A stretch of 52,735 nt of DNA, taken from an uncultured Erysipelotrichaceae bacterium. Lineage in GTDB: Bacteria > Bacillota_I > Bacilli_A > RF39 > UBA660. A program made the position numbers and the translations under genes. Where the stretch lies: contig CADCFX010000008.1 in NCBI GenBank assembly GCA_902800945.1, positions 1 to 52,735 on the forward strand. The letters run 5' to 3'. Position 1 is the first letter of the stretch. The number at the start of each line of letters is the position of its first letter. Under the pieces are notes generated by a model. That model was not told the DNA's origin, made no database searches, and saw only the letters and a list, made by a program, of their open reading frames with translations. Of the stretch, positions 4,134-47,852 are shown piece after piece.

Positions 4134-7100
4134 ATGAAATTAGCTATTGGTAATAAATACAATTTAAAACTATATATAATTCCTGAATCAATAGAAGATA
4201 CATATCTTATTAAATACCATTCTCCAATTGACAACGAAGGAAAAAATATAATTATTGTTAAAAATAAAGAAAAACTAATTATAAATAGCAATCTTAATAT
4301 GAATTTATATGAAAATGATAGAAGTGCTGAAAAGATAGAACTTAAAATATATAAGAATTATAAACTAATAATAAATGATACAGGAGAAGAATTATATTTA
4401 TACTGCCTACCTAACGAAATGGAATATCAAGATTATGCTATAGAAAAAACAACACTAAAAATTGGTCAAAGCCCTAGCAATGAAATATCTCTAAAAGAGC
4501 CCTTATTCAAAACAACTATTGTAGAAATAAATAAAATTGAAAACGAATGGTTTATAAAATCAGAAAAAGTTCCTGTGTATATAAATAAGAATACCACTAA
4601 TAATACAAAACTAAATTATGGAGATGAATTATTCATCGGCGGTCTAAAATTAATCTGGTTAAAGGGATTCGTTAGATTAAACTACCTCCCTAATTGTCTA
4701 ATATATATTCCAGAATTTGATATTAACAAGTATAAAGATACATATAAAAAAAATGTAAAACTCCAAGAATTTGATCAAAAGAAAAAAGAAGAAGCAGAAG
4801 AATTAGAGGACAGCGAAACAATAGTATTAGAAAATCCGCCATTACCAGAAAAGAATAATGAATTATACTATTTTATTGCACTAGGAGCATCTTTTACTCT
4901 TGCTATAACTTCATTAGCAACACTCCTAACAGTGTTTCTTTCTGTTGCTTCAAAAAGCAGTAGTATCAAAGAAGAAAAAAATCTGATAATAATAAGTGTC
5001 TTCTTAATATTTTGCTCCATAATATTTCCTTTTCTCATCAAAATACTTCAAAAAAGTAGCAACGAAAAAAAAGAAGGGAAAAGAATACTTTTATATAGTG
5101 AATATTTAAAAAGACAAAAAGAAACAATTGCTAATTTCGTAACTAAAAAAGCAAACTATATAAAAAGAAAATATCCAAGTAGCGAAGAGTGGCAAAAAAG
5201 AGTATTGGATAATACAATATGGAACAGAGATATCGATAGTGATGACTTTCTAACGCTTAGATTTGGTACAGGCGACATACAAGCTGATATTAACATAGAT
5301 AGCCATAAACTTAGTTTTACATATGAAAATCCTATATTAAAAGAACAACTAAATGATATCCAAAACTATTCATTATCTATGAAAAATACTCCTATTCCTA
5401 TATCTTTAACAAAGAATAGTTTCTTACCAATAATAATCAAAGAAGATTACTATAATTCCTATATTGAAATGCTTCTTCTACAATTAATCTCTTTTCATAA
5501 TAATAATCTTAAATTAGTATTCTTAGTATCAGAAGAAAACTGTAATCTTTGGAATAATTATAAATTCCTTCCACATGTAGATGATAATCAAAATGAAATA
5601 AGGTTCTTTGCTTATGATAAAATTGATACTAATAATATAATTAATTACTTAGAAGAAGCATATCAAAACAGAATTCAAAAATTAAAGAATAGCAGTATTC
5701 AAGATAATAAAGAATACTATACATCTTTTAATAATTATTATTTAATTATAACTGATAGATTGCAGGATATATTAAATTACGAAATAATCAACAAAATAAT
5801 AAGCGGAGATAATTATGGCTTTTCTCTATTGTCATTTGAAAGACACAAAAAGTATATTGAATATAAAACGTATATAGAAGTTAAAGAAGACATAATAGTT
5901 TCCAAAAATATAAAGGGAAATGGCGGAATACCAAATACATTTAAACCTGATTTCCCTAAAAAAATAGATATATACAATATAGTTAAGAAAATGGCCAATC
6001 TACCAGTGCTAGAGTATAATTCGAAGACTGCTTTACCAAAAGAAATATCTCTTTTAGATCTATACAAAGTTGGAAAAGTAGAACAATTAAATATACTTGA
6101 TAGATGGGAAAAGAATAATACCTTATTATCACTAGGATGCCCGATAGGTGCTACAAATAATAATGAGATAATTGAGATGAATCTTCACGAACATCAACAA
6201 GGGCCAAATTGTTTGATTTCGGGAATGGTTGGATCGGGAAAGTTGGAACTGCTAAAAACATATATTACATCTATGTGTATTAATTATAGTCCTAAAGAAG
6301 TTCAATTTATACTGATTGATTATAAAAACGCCGGCCTTGTTAAAACATTTAAAAATAATCTGCCTCATATCGTAGGAACCTTGACAGAACTCGAACAATC
6401 TGAACTATATAGATTCTATATATATTTAAATAACGAAATAAATAAAAGGAAAGAATTATTCACTAATATTCAGAAAAAGACTAATGAGATTACCATGAAT
6501 ATATATAAATATCAGAAACTATATAACGAAGGAATAGTATCAGAAAAAATTCCTCACTTATTTATAATATGCTACGAGTATTTTGAATTATATACCCAAC
6601 ATCAAGACTACTTATCAGATCTTTTAAATCTAATTTATAGCGCAAGTTACGTTGGTATACACTTAATATTATGTACCCAAAAACCATCAGAAGTATTAAA
6701 TAACCAAATATTAAATAATTCTAAATTAAAAATTAGTTTAAAAGTACAATCACTCATTGATAGTGAAAAAGTGTTAAATAGAAGAGAAGCTGCCAGTATT
6801 AGTAATCCCGGTCGCTTTTACTACGAAGTCGGTTACAACGAATCATTTAAACAAGTTCAAGGGGCATTAGGAAGTTCCTTCTATAATCCCCAAGAAGTAT
6901 ATAGCGAAAAAATAGATGATACCCTTAATTTTATTACTAATAGTGGGATAATATATAAAGAAGCGAATGAAGAGAAGGTAATACTAAATAAAAATAACGG
7001 CTCTGAAATAGATAATATATGCAAATATATATTAACTCTAAGCAAGAACGACGAAAAAGAAATACTTTATTTGCCTAGTTTGGAAGAAAACTTGTCGTTA

Positions 7101-38073: not shown

Positions 38074-38667
38074 ATGAACAATAAAAGTAAATTATATAAA
38101 AACGCGCGTAGATTAATATACTTTTGCTTATTTGCAACAATTATCGCAGCTTTTGTATACCTAAGCAAAAAATATGAACCGCTATCAGAAGAAAAAACAA
38201 TTAATTTTTCTAGTTATTATAAAGATATTAATACAGATAAATATAATATAATAAATGCTGGTACGCTGCTCAAAGAGTTGAAAAATGGTAAGTACATAGT
38301 ATTTATTGGCAATCACGAATCTAAATGGTCAGAAGCTTATGCCTACATATTAACTGAGTGTCTAGAAGAATTAAATATTAGAATTAATTATTATGATTTA
38401 TATTCAGACAAAAATCAAAAAAATTCTAATTATTATAAAATTAGAGAAAGATTAAAAAATTACTTGGTTTCCACCGATGACAGTGATAACAATCTTTTGG
38501 CGCCATCATTATACATAGTCGATAAAGGTAAAATAGAATACTATAATATAGCAACTGTAGCAGTAAAAAACAATACTAGAGTAGAAGAATATTGGACAAA
38601 CTACAATCGTGAATCATTTAAAAGAGAAATAAAGAATAATATTAAAAGATACTATTTGAATAATTAA
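38074..38667 (+). CDS. Membrane-anchored thioredoxin-like protein lacking CxxC
   Basis: Protein of 197 residues with one N-terminal helix (LIYFCLFATIIAAFVYL) and an extracytoplasmic domain. KYIVFIGNHESKWSEAYAYIL followed by a second strand INYYDLYSD and the LAPSLYIVDKGKIEYY strand resembles a thioredoxin fold, with ESKW where CxxC would be. That reading is inference. It occupies the slot between tsf and frr where pyrH usually is. SD GAAGTGAAAGA. Confidence 0.55.
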   Translation: MNNKSKLYKNARRLIYFCLFATIIAAFVYLSKKYEPLSEEKTINFSSYYKDINTDKYNIINAGTLLKELKNGKYIVFIGNHESKWSEAYAYILTECLEELNIRINYYDLYSDKNQKNSNYYKIRERLKNYLVSTDDSDNNLLAPSLYIVDKGKIEYYNIATVAVKNNTRVEEYWTNYNRESFKREIKNNIKRYYLNN

Positions 38668-39249: not shown

Positions 39250-39288
39250 AAAAAGAGCTGTCGCAAATTTTGCGACAACTCTTTTTTA
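39249..39288. terminator. Bidirectional terminator after frr
   Basis: AAAAAGAG-TGTCGCAAA pairs with TTTGCGACA-CTCTTTTT; the long perfect-core stem serves both frr and the convergent RhuM-Fic gene. Confidence 0.85.
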
Positions 39289-40242
39289 ATTTATAAAATG
39301 CATAATCAAATCAATTAAAGTATCCTTTTCTTCATGATTAGATTCAGCCACCAAAATAGTCAAAGCAGTAAGAGTGCTATTGTCTATTACTTTTTTTTCA
39401 TTTTTATATAGAAGCCCATAAAAATCTAGAAAATAAATAAATAGGGTAGCAGCAATTCTTTTATTTCCGTCAGCAAAAACATGATCTTTAGTAACAAAAT
39501 AAAGAAAATTAGCCGCTTTCTCTTCGACAGAAGAATATACATCAACCCCATCGTAGGAAGCATATACATTATTAATAATACTTTCTAGATTTAACGAATC
39601 ATTTTTTTCTACTGCAAAGACATCGCTTCTATTTTTATCCTTTAGCTCATCAATTAATCTCTTGCAATCTTCGTATTTTATTCGTTTTTCGCTATTAATT
39701 CCCTCAATTTTAGAAAAACTCTTATGATCGTAATCATCCAGCATATCTAAAGCTTCAGAATAATTATTGATTACCTCTAATATTTCTCGCAATTCACTAT
39801 CGGGAATTCTATCATTACCTCTTGTTGCTATTTTTACCAAATCAACAATCTGCCCCAAATACTTAAGTCGAGGATTATTAACGGCATAGCCCTTAACCAG
39901 GTAATCTTTTAAAACTCCATTTGCCCATCTTCTAAAAATGATTCCTTTCTTAGATTTTACTCTATACCCAACACTTATTATAACGTCCAAATTATAATGC
40001 TCTACCTCATACTCTTTATTATCATTAGCTGTTATAGTAAAAACCCTTACAGATTCGTTTTCAGACCCTGCCAGTTCTTCGCGCAAAACATTCTTAACGT
40101 GCTTTCCAATCGTTTTTACATCTCTATCAAATAACTCCGCCAATTGCTTTCTGTTAAGCCAAACAGTATCATCTTCTATATTAACATCTAATTTTACGCC
40201 TTGATTTTCAAAAATAACAATTTCATTTTTTTCTTTATCCAT
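39286..40242 (-). CDS. RhuM-type protein with C-terminal Fic/DOC domain
   Basis: Protein of 318 residues. The N-terminal RhuM (COG3943) domain has IVIFENQGVKLDV, TVWLNRKQLAELF and IISVGYRVKSKKGIIFRRWAN. The C-terminal Fic motif is HVFADGNKRIAATLF, with the catalytic His, Phe and the anion-binding Gly-Asn-Lys-Arg. Fic proteins usually AMPylate targets; DOC-type ones phosphorylate. No N-terminal inhibitory motif is evident. The chosen ATG follows AGAGAG; an upstream in-frame extension of 30 residues is less likely. Promoter TTGAAA-17-TAAAAT at 40271-40299. Confidence 0.85.
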   Translation of the reverse strand: MDKEKNEIVIFENQGVKLDVNIEDDTVWLNRKQLAELFDRDVKTIGKHVKNVLREELAGSENESVRVFTITANDNKEYEVEHYNLDVIISVGYRVKSKKGIIFRRWANGVLKDYLVKGYAVNNPRLKYLGQIVDLVKIATRGNDRIPDSELREILEVINNYSEALDMLDDYDHKSFSKIEGINSEKRIKYEDCKRLIDELKDKNRSDVFAVEKNDSLNLESIINNVYASYDGVDVYSSVEEKAANFLYFVTKDHVFADGNKRIAATLFIYFLDFYGLLYKNEKKVIDNSTLTALTILVAESNHEEKDTLIDLIMHFIN

Positions 40243-40270
40243 ATTATCAAATCTCTCTATATCTATTTTA

Positions 40271-40299
40271 ATTTTAAAATGGTAATATATTTTTTTCAA
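40271..40299 (-). promoter_or_regulatory. Promoter of the RhuM-Fic gene
   Basis: Minus-strand TTGAAA and TAAAAT, 17-bp spacer. Confidence 0.55.
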
Positions 40300-40359
40300 T
40301 AATAATAAAACAATTTTACACATAAAGCCCATATCGACCTTGTTTATTCGTATTTAGAC

Positions 40360-40588: not shown

Positions 40589-41170
40589 CTATCGACTTGA
40601 TAGTCCACCACCGCCATGTGAGGACTCGCCCATAGTATCATCTGCTGTTTCAGATAAGGATTTTAATGTATTTATTATCCCTTCTATATCACTTACATCA
40701 TTAATCTTATATCCGCTTTCTAACCCAGCTCTACGGAAAATAGCATCATCAAATGAAATCGTACTGGGTACCCTATAAATATCATAACTCGCTTTTGCCT
40801 CTTCAAGCATATCCTTTATAATAGATATTTCAAATGGAGATAGTTCGTCGTTCTCTAATACGGAGTGTTCTCCTTCGTACAGACGGCCTACAAAAGCTAT
40901 TGACTCTTTAAATAGCCAACCAAAAATTCCCTTAAAATCCGAATCTTCTGCTGTTAAAATACCCAATGACACGTAGTGATCATTTCTGCTCCAGGTATAA
41001 CAATAGTTTTTAAAATCTTCTGTAATTATAAAAGCTCCTCTTAATTCGTCTTCATGATTACCTGTAGTAGCATCTTCAGCGCATGTATTCCAATAATCTA
41101 GTAAACCGTAATCATCCCGCTCATTAAACCCACCGAAAAAAGTAACTTGGACTTTTCTACACTTTTCCAT
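40589..41170 (-). CDS. Soluble protein of unknown function with Gly-rich C-terminus
   Basis: Protein of 193 residues with no signal peptide or membrane helix. VQVTFFGGFNERDDYGLLDYWN near the N-terminus and SDFKGIFGWLFKESIAFVGRLYEG in the middle are distinctive; the end is MGESSHGGGGLSSR. No family is recognised. The start follows AGAGGTGATTTA; an ATG five codons upstream has no ribosome-binding site. Minus-strand TATAAT boxes lie at 41192-41197 and 41203-41208. It lies just downstream of the bacteriocin-like peptide genes, past their terminator. A role in immunity is only a possibility. Confidence 0.65.
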   Translation of the reverse strand: MEKCRKVQVTFFGGFNERDDYGLLDYWNTCAEDATTGNHEDELRGAFIITEDFKNYCYTWSRNDHYVSLGILTAEDSDFKGIFGWLFKESIAFVGRLYEGEHSVLENDELSPFEISIIKDMLEEAKASYDIYRVPSTISFDDAIFRRAGLESGYKINDVSDIEGIINTLKSLSETADDTMGESSHGGGGLSSR

Positions 41171-41210
41171 TAAATCACCTCTCATATTACTATTATAATT
41201 CTATTATAGC

Positions 41211-41238
41211 AAAATAAAAAGAGAAGAAACCTTCTCTT
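41211..41238 (-). terminator. Terminator of the double-glycine peptide operon
   Basis: On the minus strand, AAGAGAAG/CTTCTCTT with a GTTT loop, then TTTATTTT, directly after the stop of the second peptide gene. Confidence 0.85.
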
Positions 41239-41401
41239 AACAATATTTTTTGCCAAGCATATATCTTATTGCTGAACCAAAAGCTCTACCAAGCGAATAC
41301 ATAACCGTAACACCTCTAGCTATTGCATTAAGCATAGTAGCTGAAATTCCTCCAACAGCCCCGCCATAAACCATGATTAATTGACTTTTATCTAATTCCA
41401 T
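41237..41401 (-). CDS. Double-glycine leader peptide 2 (bacteriocin-like precursor)
   Basis: Small gene of 54 codons with an excellent AGGAGG site seven nt before the ATG. The leader MELDKSQLIMVYGG ends in the Gly-Gly cleavage signal. The predicted mature peptide is 40 residues, beginning AVGGIS, cationic (three Arg and two Lys), with an SLGRAFGSA stretch containing GxxxG, and ending KKYC with its single Cys. These are features of class II, possibly two-peptide, bacteriocins. It follows peptide 1 by 9 bp and is followed by a terminator. Confidence 0.82.
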   Translation of the reverse strand: MELDKSQLIMVYGGAVGGISATMLNAIARGVTVMYSLGRAFGSAIRYMLGKKYC

Positions 41402-41410
41402 TATTTCCTC

Positions 41411-41554
41411 CTATCTATTAGAGCCGCAAGTATAAGGCCTTGTTATTCCGTTAATTACACCAATTATAAAAACAATTCCGGCTCCAATTAGTGCCAATAC
41501 ACCACCTCTAACAGCTCCTCCATTAATTCTTATTAATTCTTCTTCTTTTAACAT
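41411..41554 (-). CDS. Double-glycine leader peptide 1 (bacteriocin-like precursor)
   Basis: Small gene of 47 codons whose ATG overlaps the 3' end of the exporter gene by 7 bp, behind AAAGGA. The leader MLKEEELIRINGG has the classical LxxxEL...GG pattern. The mature part is 34 residues, starts AVRGGV, is strongly hydrophobic in the centre, has a GxxxG (GVING), and ends TCGSNR with one Cys. It sits directly between exporter and peptide 2, so all three are one operon. Confidence 0.85.
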   Translation of the reverse strand: MLKEEELIRINGGAVRGGVLALIGAGIVFIIGVINGITRPYTCGSNR

Positions 41555-43608
41555 TTTACCATTCCTTTCTGCGCAGCTTCCTCTAATTTGAAAACAGTAA
41601 AGTTTTCGATATTATTATGATGAGAAATATATATAATAGTAGTTTCAGATAAAAAATCTATTAATTGTTTCATGATACTTTTTTCAGTTCTTGCATCAAC
41701 CTCGTTCAAGGCTTCATCTAAAATTAGTATTGGAGGTTTGTCAATAACCGCTCTAGCTAATACTATTCTTTGCCTCTCACCACCAGATATATTAGCGCCT
41801 CCATCTACAATTAGAGTATTTAACCTCAATTCTTTTTTATCTAACACCTCATCTAGTTTTGTTATTCTTAAAATACTATTTATATAATCCATCGAATACT
41901 CTTTGTCAAAAATGATATTATCTCTAATCGTTCCAGTGAAAAGACTTTCTCTTTGTGAAACATATCTAATATTTTTCCTAATAGTAGCCAAACTATAATC
42001 TTTTATATTAATACCATTAATTAAGATATCTCCAGTATAGTTCTCGATGTTTCTATTCAATAATTGTAACAAAGTTGATTTTCCTATTCCGCTTTTACCT
42101 CGAATTAATAATCTTTCTCCTTTATTAATATTCAAATTTATATTATTTAACGTTTTATGATAATCATTATATGAATAGGAAATGTTAATAAATGAGATTA
42201 AACCATTACTAAAATCATTATCTTCACCAATTTTTTCGCAATCAATACCTGTTATCTCTTTTAATTTAATAATAGCTAGTTTAATCGAACATATTTTGGG
42301 AATGCTATCAACTATATCTGTAATTGGGCCAAATATGTATGATAGAACAGTATTAAAGGTAATTAATTCAACTATTCTAATATGGCCAGACTTTATCAAA
42401 TAAAAGCCATAGGTATTTATAGCAAATAAACCAATTTCGTAAATAAAACTTCGTAAAAACAAGTAATTGTTTATTAATTTAGCATAAGAAAAACTACTAT
42501 TCTTTAATTCAAAAAACATTTTCTGGATTTTATCTAAAACAAAACCCCCGATATTAAGATTTTTTATAGAAACTATCCTTTCTATATTTTCTCCTAAGGA
42601 AGCATTAAAATCAGTCTCTAAATCAATAATATCATTTGTCCTTTTATATATAACAGGAACGGCTATTGAGGAGATTAAAATATATAATAATATTAAGAAT
42701 ACTACCACAAAGAATAAACGACCATTTATAAATAAAAGAACATATATAGAACAAGCTATCAAAAAAAATTCTAGAATCATAGAGACTAAGACATTTGCTA
42801 TTAAGTCCTTAATTTCCTTAATTTCATTAATTCTAGTCAATATTTCGCCAGTCGTTCTATTACGAATAATATCTAAAGGGAGATTAAAAAAATGGTTAAT
42901 AAAAGATAGAGTGAGAGAAGCGTCTATCCTTTTATTAAAAACTATCTGCCAATAATTCTTTTTCTTGATAACTAAGTTTTTAAGAATTGTAGCAATAAGA
43001 AAAAAACAACTAATATAAACAAAACTATCAGTAATATTATCACCATTGGAAAAAGCAAATTGCCAATACATAGCTAATATTAAAGAAAGGAGCGCAATAC
43101 CAATACTATCAAATAACAATTTGCAAAATAATTCCTTTTCTTGGCCAATAATACTCAAAACAGAATTGATAAAACCGCCATTAAAATGTTCGTGAATTAT
43201 TCTTTTATAAGGCCTTAGCACAAGTATAATACCATCCCATTCTTTTTCAAAATCACTAAGTCTAACTCTTTTAAAACCTTCAGCAGGATCCATAACTATT
43301 ATTTTGTCTTTTTTAACCTTATAAATCACCACAAAGTGTTCATAGCCCCTCTTTGTTAAAATATGTGCTATAACTGGTAACTTTAGATCGTTATCTAGAA
43401 TACTTATCTTTTTGCCGTAACCATCTAACCCATATTTTCTGGCTGCCATAATAATATTGAAAGCGGTTGTTCCGTTATTGTTAATCTTTGTATCTAATCT
43501 TATTTTTTCTAAATTTACATTTCCTTCATAATATCGCAGAATAGAAAGAAGGCAACAAGGGCCACAATCTCTCGTATCGCGTTGTTTAACAAATAGTTTT
43601 TTCTTCAA
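41548..43608 (-). CDS. Peptidase-containing ABC transporter (C39 peptidase, bacteriocin exporter)
   Basis: Exporter of 686 residues (TTG start) that removes double-glycine leaders and exports the peptides. C39 domain: catalytic Cys15 in RDTRDCGPCCLLSILRYY, His91 in YEHFVVI, Asp107 in VMDPAEG. About six membrane helices follow (roughly 150-430). The ATPase has Walker A GKSGIGKST, signature NISGGERQRI, Walker B ILILDEALNEVD and H-loop YISHH. The TTG is chosen because GGGGG lies just before it; the in-frame ATG at 43626 has no site and would overlap it. No HlyD-type accessory gene is in the operon. Confidence 0.93.
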   Translation of the reverse strand: MKKKLFVKQRDTRDCGPCCLLSILRYYEGNVNLEKIRLDTKINNNGTTAFNIIMAARKYGLDGYGKKISILDNDLKLPVIAHILTKRGYEHFVVIYKVKKDKIIVMDPAEGFKRVRLSDFEKEWDGIILVLRPYKRIIHEHFNGGFINSVLSIIGQEKELFCKLLFDSIGIALLSLILAMYWQFAFSNGDNITDSFVYISCFFLIATILKNLVIKKKNYWQIVFNKRIDASLTLSFINHFFNLPLDIIRNRTTGEILTRINEIKEIKDLIANVLVSMILEFFLIACSIYVLLFINGRLFFVVVFLILLYILISSIAVPVIYKRTNDIIDLETDFNASLGENIERIVSIKNLNIGGFVLDKIQKMFFELKNSSFSYAKLINNYLFLRSFIYEIGLFAINTYGFYLIKSGHIRIVELITFNTVLSYIFGPITDIVDSIPKICSIKLAIIKLKEITGIDCEKIGEDNDFSNGLISFINISYSYNDYHKTLNNINLNINKGERLLIRGKSGIGKSTLLQLLNRNIENYTGDILINGINIKDYSLATIRKNIRYVSQRESLFTGTIRDNIIFDKEYSMDYINSILRITKLDEVLDKKELRLNTLIVDGGANISGGERQRIVLARAVIDKPPILILDEALNEVDARTEKSIMKQLIDFLSETTIIYISHHNNIENFTVFKLEEAAQKGMVKC

Positions 43609-43719
43609 TAATATTTCCCCCTTCATAATATATTTTAGCTATTGATAATCATTTTCCTTTTTTTTATCAAAAATATGATATAATGAATAATATAAGATGA
43701 TTCTAGAGGAGAGTGTAGT

Positions 43720-44694
43720 ATGAGAAAGAAAAATGGTTTTATTTCAATGTCAATTATTTATTCTTTTTTCACGGTATTTATTTTAGTATCGACCTCATTG
43801 TTGTTAATATACTCTAATAATTTGGCTATAGTTAAATCGGTTAACAAAGAAATAAAAGAAGACCTAACCACAAAAGGTAATAAATCATTAATGGTTTTTC
43901 AAAACTTAATTGCCGATGGTAGCTTTGAAAAAGTTTCTGAAAATTGGAAGATAAGACCAGATACCCCCCCTCCTGTATTTAATGAGCAGAAATACTATGG
44001 ATCATATTCATTAGGATTTGTACAGAATAGTACATATAGCTATGTTCAATCAATTAACACAATAGATATGATAAAAGACCATTATTATTATATATCACGT
44101 ATTTATCTTGCTTTTAACAACATACCATCATCTTCGTTAACGTTTAAGCTGATTCCTGCAACCAATGGTGACTTTAGCGATGCGAATGGATTTGACATAC
44201 TTGAAAATGCCTATGGAATAATGGCATCCTCAAGTTGTACTACCACTTCAACTGATACAGACTGTTTATACGGAAATAGAAGTATTAATAGAGAAAGAAT
44301 AAGATATCAATCTGGATTCTGCCTAGGGATAAATGGCCGTTGCAATCCAGATGAATCCGAAGCTGAAGCATCGCAAACTACAGCTAATACTTTTGAAAGC
44401 GGGATATTCAAATATACTGAACCTAATAAAACCTATAAAATTTTACTAGGTGCCGATTATACTGGCCATGATTTGGGAACTGGAATATCTCCGCGTTATT
44501 ATACAGACGGATATATGTTAATCGATTTAACAGTTGCTCTTCAATTAAATGAAGAAAAAACTAATAAATTATTTAATGGTCAAGATAATACCAATGGATA
44601 TCGAATTGGCGCCGGGAAAATAGATGAATTGCTAGACGGCAGGTTTATTGAAGACCAAAAAATAATCCCTATTAATAAACTAGAATTAGAATAA
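43720..44694 (+). CDS. Pilin-like N-terminus with CBM-like surface domain
   Basis: Protein of 324 residues. The N-terminus MRKKNGFISMSIIYSFFTVFI resembles a prepilin leader (G|F), but +5 is Ser where Glu is usual. From residue 65, NLIADGSFEKVSENWKI, then YYGSYSLGF, resembles a CBM4/9-type jelly-roll that binds glycans. The C-terminal part is not recognised. TATAAT upstream (near 43678) and SD GGAGAGTG. It is divergent from the exporter and is the last accessory gene before rpsU. Confidence 0.65.
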   Translation: MRKKNGFISMSIIYSFFTVFILVSTSLLLIYSNNLAIVKSVNKEIKEDLTTKGNKSLMVFQNLIADGSFEKVSENWKIRPDTPPPVFNEQKYYGSYSLGFVQNSTYSYVQSINTIDMIKDHYYYISRIYLAFNNIPSSSLTFKLIPATNGDFSDANGFDILENAYGIMASSSCTTTSTDTDCLYGNRSINRERIRYQSGFCLGINGRCNPDESEAEASQTTANTFESGIFKYTEPNKTYKILLGADYTGHDLGTGISPRYYTDGYMLIDLTVALQLNEEKTNKLFNGQDNTNGYRIGAGKIDELLDGRFIEDQKIIPINKLELE

Positions 44695-44797: not shown

Positions 44798-44986
44798 ATG
44801 ACTAAGGTAGTTGTCCAAAATGGTAACATTGATAGCGCTTTAAGAAAGTTTAAGGTAAAAGTTGCTAGAAGTGGTGTCCCTTCTGAATTGAAAAAAAGAA
44901 AATGTTATGATAAACCAGGCGTTAAAAGACGTAAGGCGAAAGAAGAAATGATTAGAAACTCTCGTAAACGTAGAAGAAATGATTAA
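44798..44986 (+). CDS. rpsU: Ribosomal protein S21
   Basis: Very basic 62-residue protein of the small subunit, VVVQNGNIDSALRKFK...KCYDKPGVKRRKAKEE, ending KRRRND. SD GGGAGGGAGAT. It is followed at once by yqeY, the usual gene order. Confidence 0.95.
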   Translation: MTKVVVQNGNIDSALRKFKVKVARSGVPSELKKRKCYDKPGVKRRKAKEEMIRNSRKRRRND

Positions 44987-45003
44987 TGGATGGTGAAGTT
45001 GTT

Positions 45004-45447
45004 ATGACAATGATGGAAGTAGTAACTAATGATTTAACCGCTGCTATGAAAGAACAAGATAAGTTTACTTTATCTGTACTTAGAATGTTAAAAAGTGCTT
45101 TACAATTAGAAAAGATAAGTAAGAAACATGACTTAGATGATAATGAAGTTATTGCGGTAATAAAAAAGCAAGTTAAAACAAGAAAAGATAGCATAGTTGA
45201 ATTTGAAAAGTTCAATAAAACAGAAGAAGTTGAAAAACTAAATAAAGAGATAGAAGTATTAACTAAATATCTACCTCCTGAATTATCTAAAGAAGAACTA
45301 GAGAAAGCTCTAGACGAAATATTTGCCGAAGTAAAGCCTGAAAGTATTAAAGACATGGGTAAAATAATGAAAGCGGTATCCAGTAAGTTAGGAAACTCAG
45401 CAGATATGTCTTTGGTTAGTTCTTTAGTAAAAGAAAAATTAAGTTAG
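45004..45447 (+). CDS. yqeY: YqeY/GatB-like protein
   Basis: Protein of 147 residues, all alpha-helical, related to the tail of GatB. The N-terminal EVVTNDLTAAMKEQDKFTLSVLRML and the VIAVIKKQVKTRKDSI, YLPPELSKEEL motifs are conserved. The ATG after GGTGAAG is preferred to the one six codons upstream, which would overlap rpsU. The function is thought to be linked to translation or aminoacyl-tRNA amidation. Confidence 0.9.
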   Translation: MTMMEVVTNDLTAAMKEQDKFTLSVLRMLKSALQLEKISKKHDLDDNEVIAVIKKQVKTRKDSIVEFEKFNKTEEVEKLNKEIEVLTKYLPPELSKEELEKALDEIFAEVKPESIKDMGKIMKAVSSKLGNSADMSLVSSLVKEKLS

Positions 45448-45523: not shown

Positions 45524-46150
45524 ATGGGAAATTTATCTCCTTTTCATAGCACTCTTAAATGGGCCCTTGAATCCACTTGGCCTATGTTAACCCTCTTTAT
45601 TGTTATTATAATGATAAGTCGCATTTCATATATAATCATAAATAAAAAGAAGGTTGTGTTATATAAAGATGTTTTTATATTGCTAAGCATATTATATTTG
45701 TTAATGCTATATTTTATGTTATTAAGTACTGAGTATTCTACCTCAGGTGTAAATCTACATATATTTAGAGAAATGAGTAGATATAGTATAGGATCCAAAT
45801 CATTCTTTTATAATGTAATGGGGAATATAGCTTTATTTGTTCCATTTGGCTTCATCCTATCATACTTTATCAAAGCTAATAAAATTAGACATGTTATAAT
45901 TCCTAGCTTTGTAGTAAGTTTTTCTGCAGAAATTATTCAATATCAAATAGGTAGAGCTTTTGATGTGGATGATATAATATTAAATACAACCGGCGCTTTA
46001 ATTGGCTTTATGATATATATTAGCCTTAGAGAAATAAAACATAAATTGCCGGAATTTTTGCAAAAAAACTGGTTTTATAACACTTTATCAATTATACTAT
46101 TAGCTGGCGTAATAATGCTAATAGTAAGCATATGGTTGGTGAAATTATGA
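45524..46150 (+). CDS. VanZ-family membrane protein
   Basis: Protein of 208 residues with about five hydrophobic helices. VMGNIALFVPFGFIL, SAEIIQYQIGRAFDVDDIILNTTGALIGF is the VanZ signature. Some homologues give low-level teicoplanin resistance; most have no known role. The ATG seven codons into the frame has GGAAGTGATTATA in front. Its TGA stop overlaps the ybeY start (ATGA). Confidence 0.88.
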   Translation: MGNLSPFHSTLKWALESTWPMLTLFIVIIMISRISYIIINKKKVVLYKDVFILLSILYLLMLYFMLLSTEYSTSGVNLHIFREMSRYSIGSKSFFYNVMGNIALFVPFGFILSYFIKANKIRHVIIPSFVVSFSAEIIQYQIGRAFDVDDIILNTTGALIGFMIYISLREIKHKLPEFLQKNWFYNTLSIILLAGVIMLIVSIWLVKL

Positions 46151-46587
46151 ATGATATTACGATAGTAGATAATGATTTGTATAAAGATTATGATTACTTG
46201 GAAGATGTATTAGAATATACCCTTAAACACGAAAAAGTTACTAATGCCATTTTTTCCATAGTATTCGTCGATGATGAAGAAATACACCGTATTAATAGAG
46301 AATATCGCAATGTAGATAGAGTTACAGATGTTATTTCGTTTGCATTTGAAGATAATCAGGATGTGCGTTATAATAATATCAGAATACTAGGAGATATATA
46401 CATATGCATACCCCAAATGAAAAGACAAGCCGTTTCGTTTGGGCATAGTGAAAAAAGAGAACTTGCTTTTCTAAGCGTTCATGGTTTATTACACTTATTA
46501 GGTTATGACCATATGACAAAAGATGAAGAAAAGAAAATGTTTGAGTTACAGGAGCTGATATTAAATGCCAAAAATATCAAGAGATGA
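46147..46587 (+). CDS. ybeY: Endoribonuclease YbeY
   Basis: Zinc-dependent rRNA-processing/quality-control protein of 146 residues. The metal site is HGLLHLLGYDHMTKDEEKKM (three His). DRVTDVISFAF is conserved upstream. The start overlaps the preceding stop (ATGA) and follows GGTGA. It is the head of a ybeY-dgkA-era block with overlapping genes. Confidence 0.95.
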   Translation: MNDITIVDNDLYKDYDYLEDVLEYTLKHEKVTNAIFSIVFVDDEEIHRINREYRNVDRVTDVISFAFEDNQDVRYNNIRILGDIYICIPQMKRQAVSFGHSEKRELAFLSVHGLLHLLGYDHMTKDEEKKMFELQELILNAKNIKR

Positions 46588-46972
46588 TATCAAAAAGAGG
46601 GGATTTGGTCGTTTTGCCAAGAGTTTTAAATACTCATTAGATGGGCTGATATATGCCTATAAATACGAGCAAAGTATGCTAATACATGTAATAGCAACAA
46701 TCTTTGTTATTATAGCAAACATAGTATTACAAATATCCCCAACCGAATGGTTAATCACTTTTATAGCTATAGGCATGGTATTAGCCGCTGAATTATTTAA
46801 TACTGCCATTGAAGCTGTTGTTGATTTAGTAACTTTAGAAATTCATCCTTTAGCCAAAATAGCTAAAGATTGCGGCAGCGCCGCTACATTTGTTTTAGCT
46901 CTAATGGCGGGCGTAATAGGCTTCGTTATATATGTTCCACACATTATAGAAATGATAGGTATCTATGCGTAG
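46565..46972 (+). CDS. dgkA: Undecaprenol/diacylglycerol kinase DgkA
   Basis: Protein of 135 residues with a basic N-terminus and three membrane helices. AELFNTAIEAVVDLVT is the family signature, and KIAKDCGSAATFV is the second. In Gram-positives it phosphorylates undecaprenol, recycling the lipid carrier used by MraY and MurG. It overlaps ybeY by 23 bp and era by 8 bp. Confidence 0.93.
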   Translation: MPKISRDDIKKRGFGRFAKSFKYSLDGLIYAYKYEQSMLIHVIATIFVIIANIVLQISPTEWLITFIAIGMVLAAELFNTAIEAVVDLVTLEIHPLAKIAKDCGSAATFVLALMAGVIGFVIYVPHIIEMIGIYA

Positions 46973-47852
46973 CGGGTTTGTTAGCATAATAGGCCGACCT
47001 AATGTCGGCAAAAGTACACTACTTAATAGCTTAATAAATCAAAAAATAGCAATCACATCTAACAAACCGCAAACGACAAGGAACATTATCCAAGGAATAT
47101 ATAATGAAGAAGGATATCAAATAGTTTTCGTTGATACTCCAGGAATTCACAAGCCAATCAATAAACTAGGTAAAATTCTAAATAAAGAAGCTCAAAGCTT
47201 GACACAAGACGTTGATGCAATACTATTTGTTGTGGACGCTAGCGAAGGTATTGGCTCTGGAGATAAAAGAATAATTGCGGACTTAAGGAGTACCGACTCT
47301 CCCGTTTTGCTCATATTAAACAAAATAGATAAAATAAGTCGTGAAGATATCATAAAAACTATTAATGAATATCGAGATTTATACGATTTTGCAGAGATTA
47401 TTCCAATCTCGGCTCTAAAGAAAAACAACGTTGATGATTTGTTAGCTACCATAAAAAAGTATTTGACAGATAATATAAGATATTTTGATGATGATATAAT
47501 TACTTCAAGTAGTATAAGCTTTATGGCATCTGAATTTGTAAGGGAAAAACTACTTCGTATGACAGAGCAAGAGATACCTCATAGTATTACTTGCGTAACA
47601 TCTAAATTTGAAGAAAAAACAGATATTGTAAATATTACCGTAGATGTCATAGTCGATCGTGATTCTATTAAAAAAATAGTTATAGGAAAGAATGGTCAAT
47701 TACTAAAAAGTGTAGGAATAGAAGCGCGTAAAGATATAGAAGCGTTATTAGGTAAGCAAGTATACTTAGAATTATATGTTAAAACATTAAAAAACTGGCG
47801 AGATAAAGAAAAGTATTTTAGCGAGCTAGGATTTAATGAAATAGAATTATAA
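46965..47852 (+). CDS. era: GTPase Era
   Basis: 30S assembly GTPase of 295 residues. G1 GRPNVGKSTLLN, G2/G3 QTTRN, FVDTPGIHKP, G4 LNKIDK and G5 SALK are present. The C-terminal KH domain contains VIVDRDSIKKIVIGKNGQLLK, which binds the 3' end of 16S rRNA. It is followed by a terminator. Confidence 0.97.
   Translation: MRSGFVSIIGRPNVGKSTLLNSLINQKIAITSNKPQTTRNIIQGIYNEEGYQIVFVDTPGIHKPINKLGKILNKEAQSLTQDVDAILFVVDASEGIGSGDKRIIADLRSTDSPVLLILNKIDKISREDIIKTINEYRDLYDFAEIIPISALKKNNVDDLLATIKKYLTDNIRYFDDDIITSSSISFMASEFVREKLLRMTEQEIPHSITCVTSKFEEKTDIVNITVDVIVDRDSIKKIVIGKNGQLLKSVGIEARKDIEALLGKQVYLELYVKTLKNWRDKEKYFSELGFNEIEL

Follow-up and report, generated by a model that had tools for sequence, protein, structure and literature searches.

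A near-universal two-peptide operon with a C39 exporter and class IIb-type anatomy in an uncultured gut bacterial family

Two-peptide bacteriocins usually occur patchily, as weapons of individual strains, and bacteriocins tend to diversify. The class IIb systems closest to the operon described here are lactococcin G and enterocin 1071 (NF038034/NF038035) and lactobin A and cerein 7B (TIGR03949). A second point of comparison lies in the mycoplasmas, where the Mbov_0121 exporter (NF045998), a C39-ABC exporter, is followed by a MAG1140-type protein (NF045999) at the ybeY-era locus. In the minimal cell JCVI-syn3A a C39 transporter, 0401, has been retained, and no cargo with a double-glycine leader is reported for it. 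It is annotated as like the sublancin transporter and has been tentatively modelled as a lipoyl-peptide importer (PMC6609329). The literature that was searched, which included few subscription journals, holds no description of the present operon, of its fixation across a family, of the small protein PepC discussed below, or of a locus shared with mycoplasmas.

Layout of the operon and anatomy of its products

The window analysed spans all 52735 bp of contig C8, which belongs to a metagenome-assembled genome of 1.42 Mb that is 90.5% complete and 7.9% contaminated; the family genomes read alongside it are draft assemblies. The operon lies on the minus strand and has the following features.

41548..43608, minus strand: C39-peptidase ABC exporter, 686 aa from TTG 43608 (longest ORF from ATG 43626, 692 aa)
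43617..43623, minus strand: likely ribosome-binding site for the TTG start, AAGGGGG, from sequence
41562..41568, minus strand: PepA ribosome-binding site AAAGGAA, within the 3' end of the exporter gene
41411..41554, minus strand: PepA precursor, 47 aa (family alignment A2, purifying selection)
41516-41554, minus strand: PepA leader MLKEEELIRINGG
41414-41515, minus strand: predicted mature PepA, 34 aa, AVRGG...GSNR, with GxxxG (GVING) and one Cys
41407..41412, minus strand: PepB ribosome-binding site AGGAGG
41237..41401, minus strand: PepB precursor, 54 aa (family alignment A1, family distribution)
41360-41401, minus strand: PepB leader MELDKSQLIMVYGG
41240-41359, minus strand: predicted mature PepB, 40 aa, AVGGISA...GKKYC, with GxxxGxxxR (GRAFGSAIR) and a C-terminal Cys
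41219..41238, minus strand: hairpin resembling an intrinsic terminator, with a U-rich tail; it overlaps the stop codon of PepB

As judged from the sequence, the exporter, PepA and PepB genes make up one operon. The initial annotation had described two small genes of 47 and 54 codons with good Shine-Dalgarno sites, and both ORFs were found behind AAAGGAA and AGGAGG. It also had the small genes overlapping, which does not hold for PepA and PepB, separated by a 9-nt gap; an overlap of 7 nt does exist between the exporter gene and PepA. Its exporter coordinate of 43608 stands, since TTG 43608 behind AAGGGGG is a likelier start than the longest-ORF ATG 43626. A terminator-like hairpin is indeed present at the end of the operon, but the strength first ascribed to it is not borne out: with an 8-bp stem holding 3 GC pairs, a U-rich tail, about -9 kcal/mol and a z of -1.4, it is a plausible terminator, not a strong one.

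The exporter contains the Pfam domains C39 (2e-34), ABC_membrane (3e-22) and ABC_tran (2e-30), all above cut-offs. Its catalytic Cys, His and Asp had been called intact. C21, H97 and D113 (692-aa numbering) are present in the window exporter and invariant wherever the alignment of 52 relatives covers them, and the ATPase motifs are also conserved in this alignment. Against TIGR01193 (bacteriocin ABC exporters) it scores 354.8 bits, under the cut-off of 523.85, and against NF045998 it scores 303.6 bits, under the cut-off of 500. By locus, and by the MID protein that relatives carry, it is related to NF045998 without being filed as a member.

Both small genes had been read as beginning with leaders that end in Gly-Gly, and this GG is invariant in both family alignments (57/57 for PepA, 56/56 for PepB). 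The predicted mature lengths of 34 and 40 residues were recovered from the window ORFs; across the family they are mostly 29-38 for PepA and 36-42 for PepB. The calculated monoisotopic masses for the window are 3426.93 Da for reduced mature PepA, 4196.19 Da for mature PepB and 7621.10 Da for an oxidised heterodimer of the two. PepA runs from GG through a hydrophobic stretch to GxxxG (56/57), a P and one Cys (55/57), which in 52 of the 57 sequences stands exactly 7 residues past GxxxG. PepB runs from GG through an amphipathic cationic stretch to GxxxG (56/56) and one Cys (55/56), placed 12 residues past GxxxG in 53/56. In genus g45, the pair of G238 and the second pair of G058 are without the C-terminal Cys in both peptides. 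A disulfide between the two peptides would lead one to expect such a joint loss, though the loss may represent a single event. The G058 operon holds its two PepA/PepB pairs in tandem, and the first keeps both C-terminal Cys.

The peptides had been said to resemble no bacteriocin that could be named. For the window this stands at the level of profiles, as its PepA scores below the cut-offs of both TIGR03949 (18.4 < 21.5 bits) and NF038034 (22.7 < 37 bits); it does not extend to the family, where the PepA of some relatives, and one PepB, pass TIGR03949. Parts of the family may therefore already be auto-annotated as class IIb bacteriocins. Some PepA also show weak ComC and VP1 leader similarity.

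Spread, descent and selection within the family

Exporter homologues were found in 61 of 117 relatives (E<=1e-60), and at strict thresholds both peptides are present in 54 of 61 loci, a set that includes the own genome. Among family loci missed at these thresholds, G020 (where the frame was read) and G021 hold sub-threshold copies, while G032 and G062 lie at a contig end; the G062 pair was found on another contig. In G029 the peptide pair has decayed, the one decayed locus. Two exporter loci outside the family, among the 61, have no PepA or PepB. A further 16 loci, picked by PepB matches, all contain both peptides, with an exporter or exporter fragment adjoining wherever the contig shows the region. 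Related exporters without the small genes, or with frameshifted ones, had been named as the case that would overturn the operon reading; the family exporters with readable flanks all adjoin the pair, decayed in G029.

In genome samples, on which all these presence counts rest, the PepB profile matches 357 of 386 family genomes, 241 of the 251 of high quality, and 144 of 150 genera, nearly always in single copy. Two of nine high-quality PepB-negative genomes that were checked have the exporter at a contig end, and the other seven have no exporter match covering the C39 part among the matches listed. In samples of the class and the phylum, no true PepA or PepB was found beyond the family. Matches there with E of 1e-6 to 1e-3 cover mostly the leader region alone and were rejected as homologues.

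Pairwise distances of the exporter follow those of the Era tree (Spearman 0.73; 0 of 2000 permutations reach it), and the two trees have 19 of 49 splits in common. The peptides follow Era distances more weakly (0.41), as expected of two very short sequences. Because exporter distances track Era and the operon sits beside rpsU-yqeY in many relatives, descent is mainly vertical. A horizontal, plasmid or phage origin was rejected: PepB has no match among plasmids or phages, exporters on plasmids reach about 31% identity at best, and the exporter tracks Era. The exporters of G014 and G007 were considered as pseudogenes and cleared, the flagged stops being the normal gene end. The PepA/PepB system is a near-universal, vertically inherited family trait.

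Within the genus, dN/dS is 0.06-0.28 for the pairs with unsaturated synonymous sites, and the mature peptide part is as conserved as the leader. Selection on both peptides is purifying. The gene arrangement observed in the window is confirmed as real and far beyond chance by its recurrence across the family together with dN/dS of this range wherever computable, and the exporter-peptide-peptide operon first proposed is supported.

Neighbouring genes and the ybeY-era locus

The surroundings of the operon contain the following genes.

40589-41185, minus strand (operon strand): 198-aa ORF without a match in Pfam or NCBIfam; G007 has a related ORF of 205 aa in this position
44798-44986, plus strand: rpsU (bS21)
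44986-45447, plus strand: yqeY
46132-46587, plus strand: ybeY
46965-47852, plus strand: era, with a 135-aa gene between it and ybeY

The names rpsU and yqeY were assigned from general knowledge and from the resemblance of sequences between loci. Many relatives have the operon just upstream of rpsU-yqeY, and in the window this gene pair has the opposite orientation. Three other window genes were noticed. A divergent gene (43720-44694, plus strand) encodes a protein without a family match whose N-terminus, GFISMSIIYSFFTVFILVSTSLLL, is pilin-like; a similar protein follows PepB in G038. The product of 38074-38667 (plus strand) is membrane-anchored and gives a weak match, far below cut-off (E 0.008), to PedC/BrcD, a disulfide isomerase of bacteriocin maturation; it has no CxxC. 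At 39286-40332 (minus strand) lies a RhuM-Fic fusion (Virulence_RhuM 6e-22, Fic 1e-8).

In most relatives a protein termed MID (125-156 aa, one N-terminal TM) sits between the exporter and PepA. MID matches NF045999, the mycoplasma MAG1140 family, along its entire length with E of 2e-4 to 3e-3, under the curated cut-off, and the NF045999 profile independently recovers MIDs beside PepA at the expected place in G178, G117, G058 and G200. By these profile matches, MID is a MAG1140 homologue. Its reading as an HlyD-type fusion protein was rejected; it has no Pfam or PDB support, and a NisI match at E 0.4 is noise.

Many relatives also carry PepC, a protein 42-62 aa long that has a single hydrophobic segment and lacks a GG leader; its gene overlaps the PepB stop by 7-26 nt. 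Its GxxxG is invariant and its R nearly so, giving the same GxxxGxxxR as in PepB. A PepC model matches 59 of 154 family genomes at E<1e-5, some of which were used to build it. PepC is perhaps the immunity protein of these relatives. In the window genome neither MID nor PepC was found above noise, and no recognisable immunity gene lies beside the operon. The 198-aa downstream ORF was rejected as immunity gene: it matches no family, shows no obvious membrane segment, and a related ORF was found only in G007.

The window operon is about 2.5 kb from ybeY and about 3.3 kb from era, the anchor genes of a locus common to mycoplasma- and spiroplasma-type genomes. In the mycoplasma-type G115 and G491, read with UGA as Trp, the genes for a MAG1140 protein, ybeY, cdd and era come in this order after that of a C39-ABC exporter. 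In 13 of 14 further mycoplasma- or spiroplasma-type loci an exporter that starts with C39 lies directly upstream of ybeY or one small gene off, and in 12 of these further loci era stands behind ybeY. No PepA or PepB was seen at the locus in these genomes. RF39 has been placed next to Mycoplasmatales (PMC7301438), which makes a common ancestral locus plausible.

A GG-leader ORF of 78-137 aa (GA in L217) occurs in the spiroplasma-type family f4, mostly beside rplU. Its shared pattern is SGA/SGS..L..GI near the start and a later K..G......WDNT-like stretch. It was found at the following positions.

5039-5431: L211
4911-5198: L212
5170-5583: L213
5041-5373: L214
4792-5154: L215
5048-5407: L216
4315-4665: L217
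5061-5297: L219

It is a candidate unlinked cargo of the ybeY-era C39 exporter. A 79-aa GG-leader ORF with similar features lies in the mycoplasma-type genome G797 (L218, 4889-5128, minus strand), whose NF045998 exporter scores above the cut-off.

Possible functions and comparison with known systems

With moderate confidence, and from sequence data, we read the operon as a vertically inherited, near-universal, C39-exported two-peptide system of class IIb type that is likely antibacterial. The exporter would bind both leaders, cut after GG and export the mature 34- and 40-aa peptides together. These would pair via GxxxG contacts, probably with a PepA-PepB disulfide in addition, and the hydrophobic PepA and the cationic amphipathic PepB would insert as a unit into a target membrane and permeabilise it. 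Neighbouring gut bacteria would be the most likely target. In the relatives that have it, PepC, a one-helix membrane protein with the same GxxxGxxxR as PepB, would probably give decoy-type immunity by occupying PepA, and MID may be an accessory of the exporter. This reading draws on the order and coupling of the operon, the catalytic residues, the GG, GxxxG and Cys alignments with their fixed spacings of 7 and 12, the joint Cys loss in g45, dN/dS of 0.06-0.28, the sequences that pass TIGR03949, and PepC with its overlap and GxxxG/R. Against it stands a window genome that has no PepC or recognisable adjacent immunity gene. Near-universality, single copy, vertical descent and a conserved mature part also argue against an ordinary bacteriocin. 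Anatomy favours a class IIb-type membrane-active pair, and distribution favours a role kept by nearly all members.

That distribution speaks for an unlikely but substantial alternative, in which the products form a housekeeping secreted complex and not a weapon: a disulfide-linked membrane heterodimer of PepA and PepB serving the producer's own envelope, with PepC as third partner. The exporter would then be part of an old export core of the RF39-like and mycoplasma radiation and carry different cargo in different lineages. Also in line with this alternative are the presence of a C39 exporter at the ybeY-era locus in mycoplasma- and spiroplasma-type genomes, the homology of MID to MAG1140, the lack of an obvious immunity gene in the window genome, and a minimal cell that has retained a C39 exporter for which GG cargo is not known (PMC6609329). 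Against it, the GG leader, GxxxG pair and TIGR03949 similarity are the anatomy of a two-peptide bacteriocin; 0401 is listed as removable (PMC6609329); and the system is dispensable in some lineages, given that high-quality genomes without it exist. A broader proposal, tentative and rather doubtful, is that the exporter is an ancient core system of this radiation at the ybeY-era locus, that PepA/PepB are its lineage-specific, disulfide-paired cargo, serving basic physiology and not as a weapon, and that the cargo-orphan C39 exporter of mycoplasmas and the minimal cell belongs to it too and transports unlinked GG proteins, for example those encoded next to rplU in spiroplasma-type genomes.

C39 exporters also handle pheromones, and PepA, PepB or both could be exported signals sensed by their own lineage, with which the weak resemblance of some PepA to the ComC and VP1 leaders would agree. 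Such leader similarity is common to all GG peptides, however, and no sensor or response regulator was found among the genes called beside the operon. Two long hydrophobic or amphipathic peptides with conserved, not diversified, mature parts also fit poorly, so that pheromones are improbable. Slightly more improbable again is kin lysis (fratricide) tied to DNA uptake, in which a two-peptide lysin would be used lineage-wide on siblings and hence conserved. It would reconcile class IIb anatomy with near-universality, and streptococci are known to use bacteriocins for predation that competence induces (PMC13059744). Kin lysis needs immunity, but the window genome is without PepC.

In about 96% of the high-quality genomes from an entire uncultured family of gut bacteria, a class IIb-like operon is a single-copy vertical trait. 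Either the entire family consists of bacteriocin producers or the class IIb design has a use other than as a weapon, and family-wide fixation points to an old and important function. The operon suggests a disulfide-paired two-peptide unit with a decoy-type immunity protein, and it bears on the purpose of the cargo-less C39 exporter that mycoplasmas and the minimal cell have retained.

Among known systems, 0401 of JCVI-syn3A has a C39 domain like the window exporter; it comes from a mollicute and is reported to have no recognised double-glycine cargo. The Mbov_0121/MAG1140 locus shares with most relatives a C39-ABC exporter followed by a MID-type protein. The window has no MID and its exporter falls short of the NF045998 cut-off, and the mycoplasma locus has no PepA/PepB. 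PepC resembles CbnZ, the immunity protein of carnobacteriocin XY (PMC6957408), in being very short, in its one TM and in its position beside a two-peptide pair. Unlike CbnZ it carries the GxxxGxxxR of PepB, which suggests a decoy, and unlike the carnobacteriocin XY pair the window pair has no such protein beside it. The initial label of bacteriocin-like holds at the level of architecture: as in class IIb systems, two different, adjacent small precursor genes with GG leaders lie in one operon with a dedicated C39 ABC exporter, and GxxxG or a GxxxG-like motif is found in both mature peptides. Many relatives also have a one-helix candidate for immunity, PepC; none was found in the window genome. 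Unlike class IIb systems, the window operon has no recognisable adjacent immunity gene and its peptides score below the family cut-offs, PepA and PepB each carry one conserved Cys, and the pair is near-universal and vertically inherited across a whole family rather than patchy.
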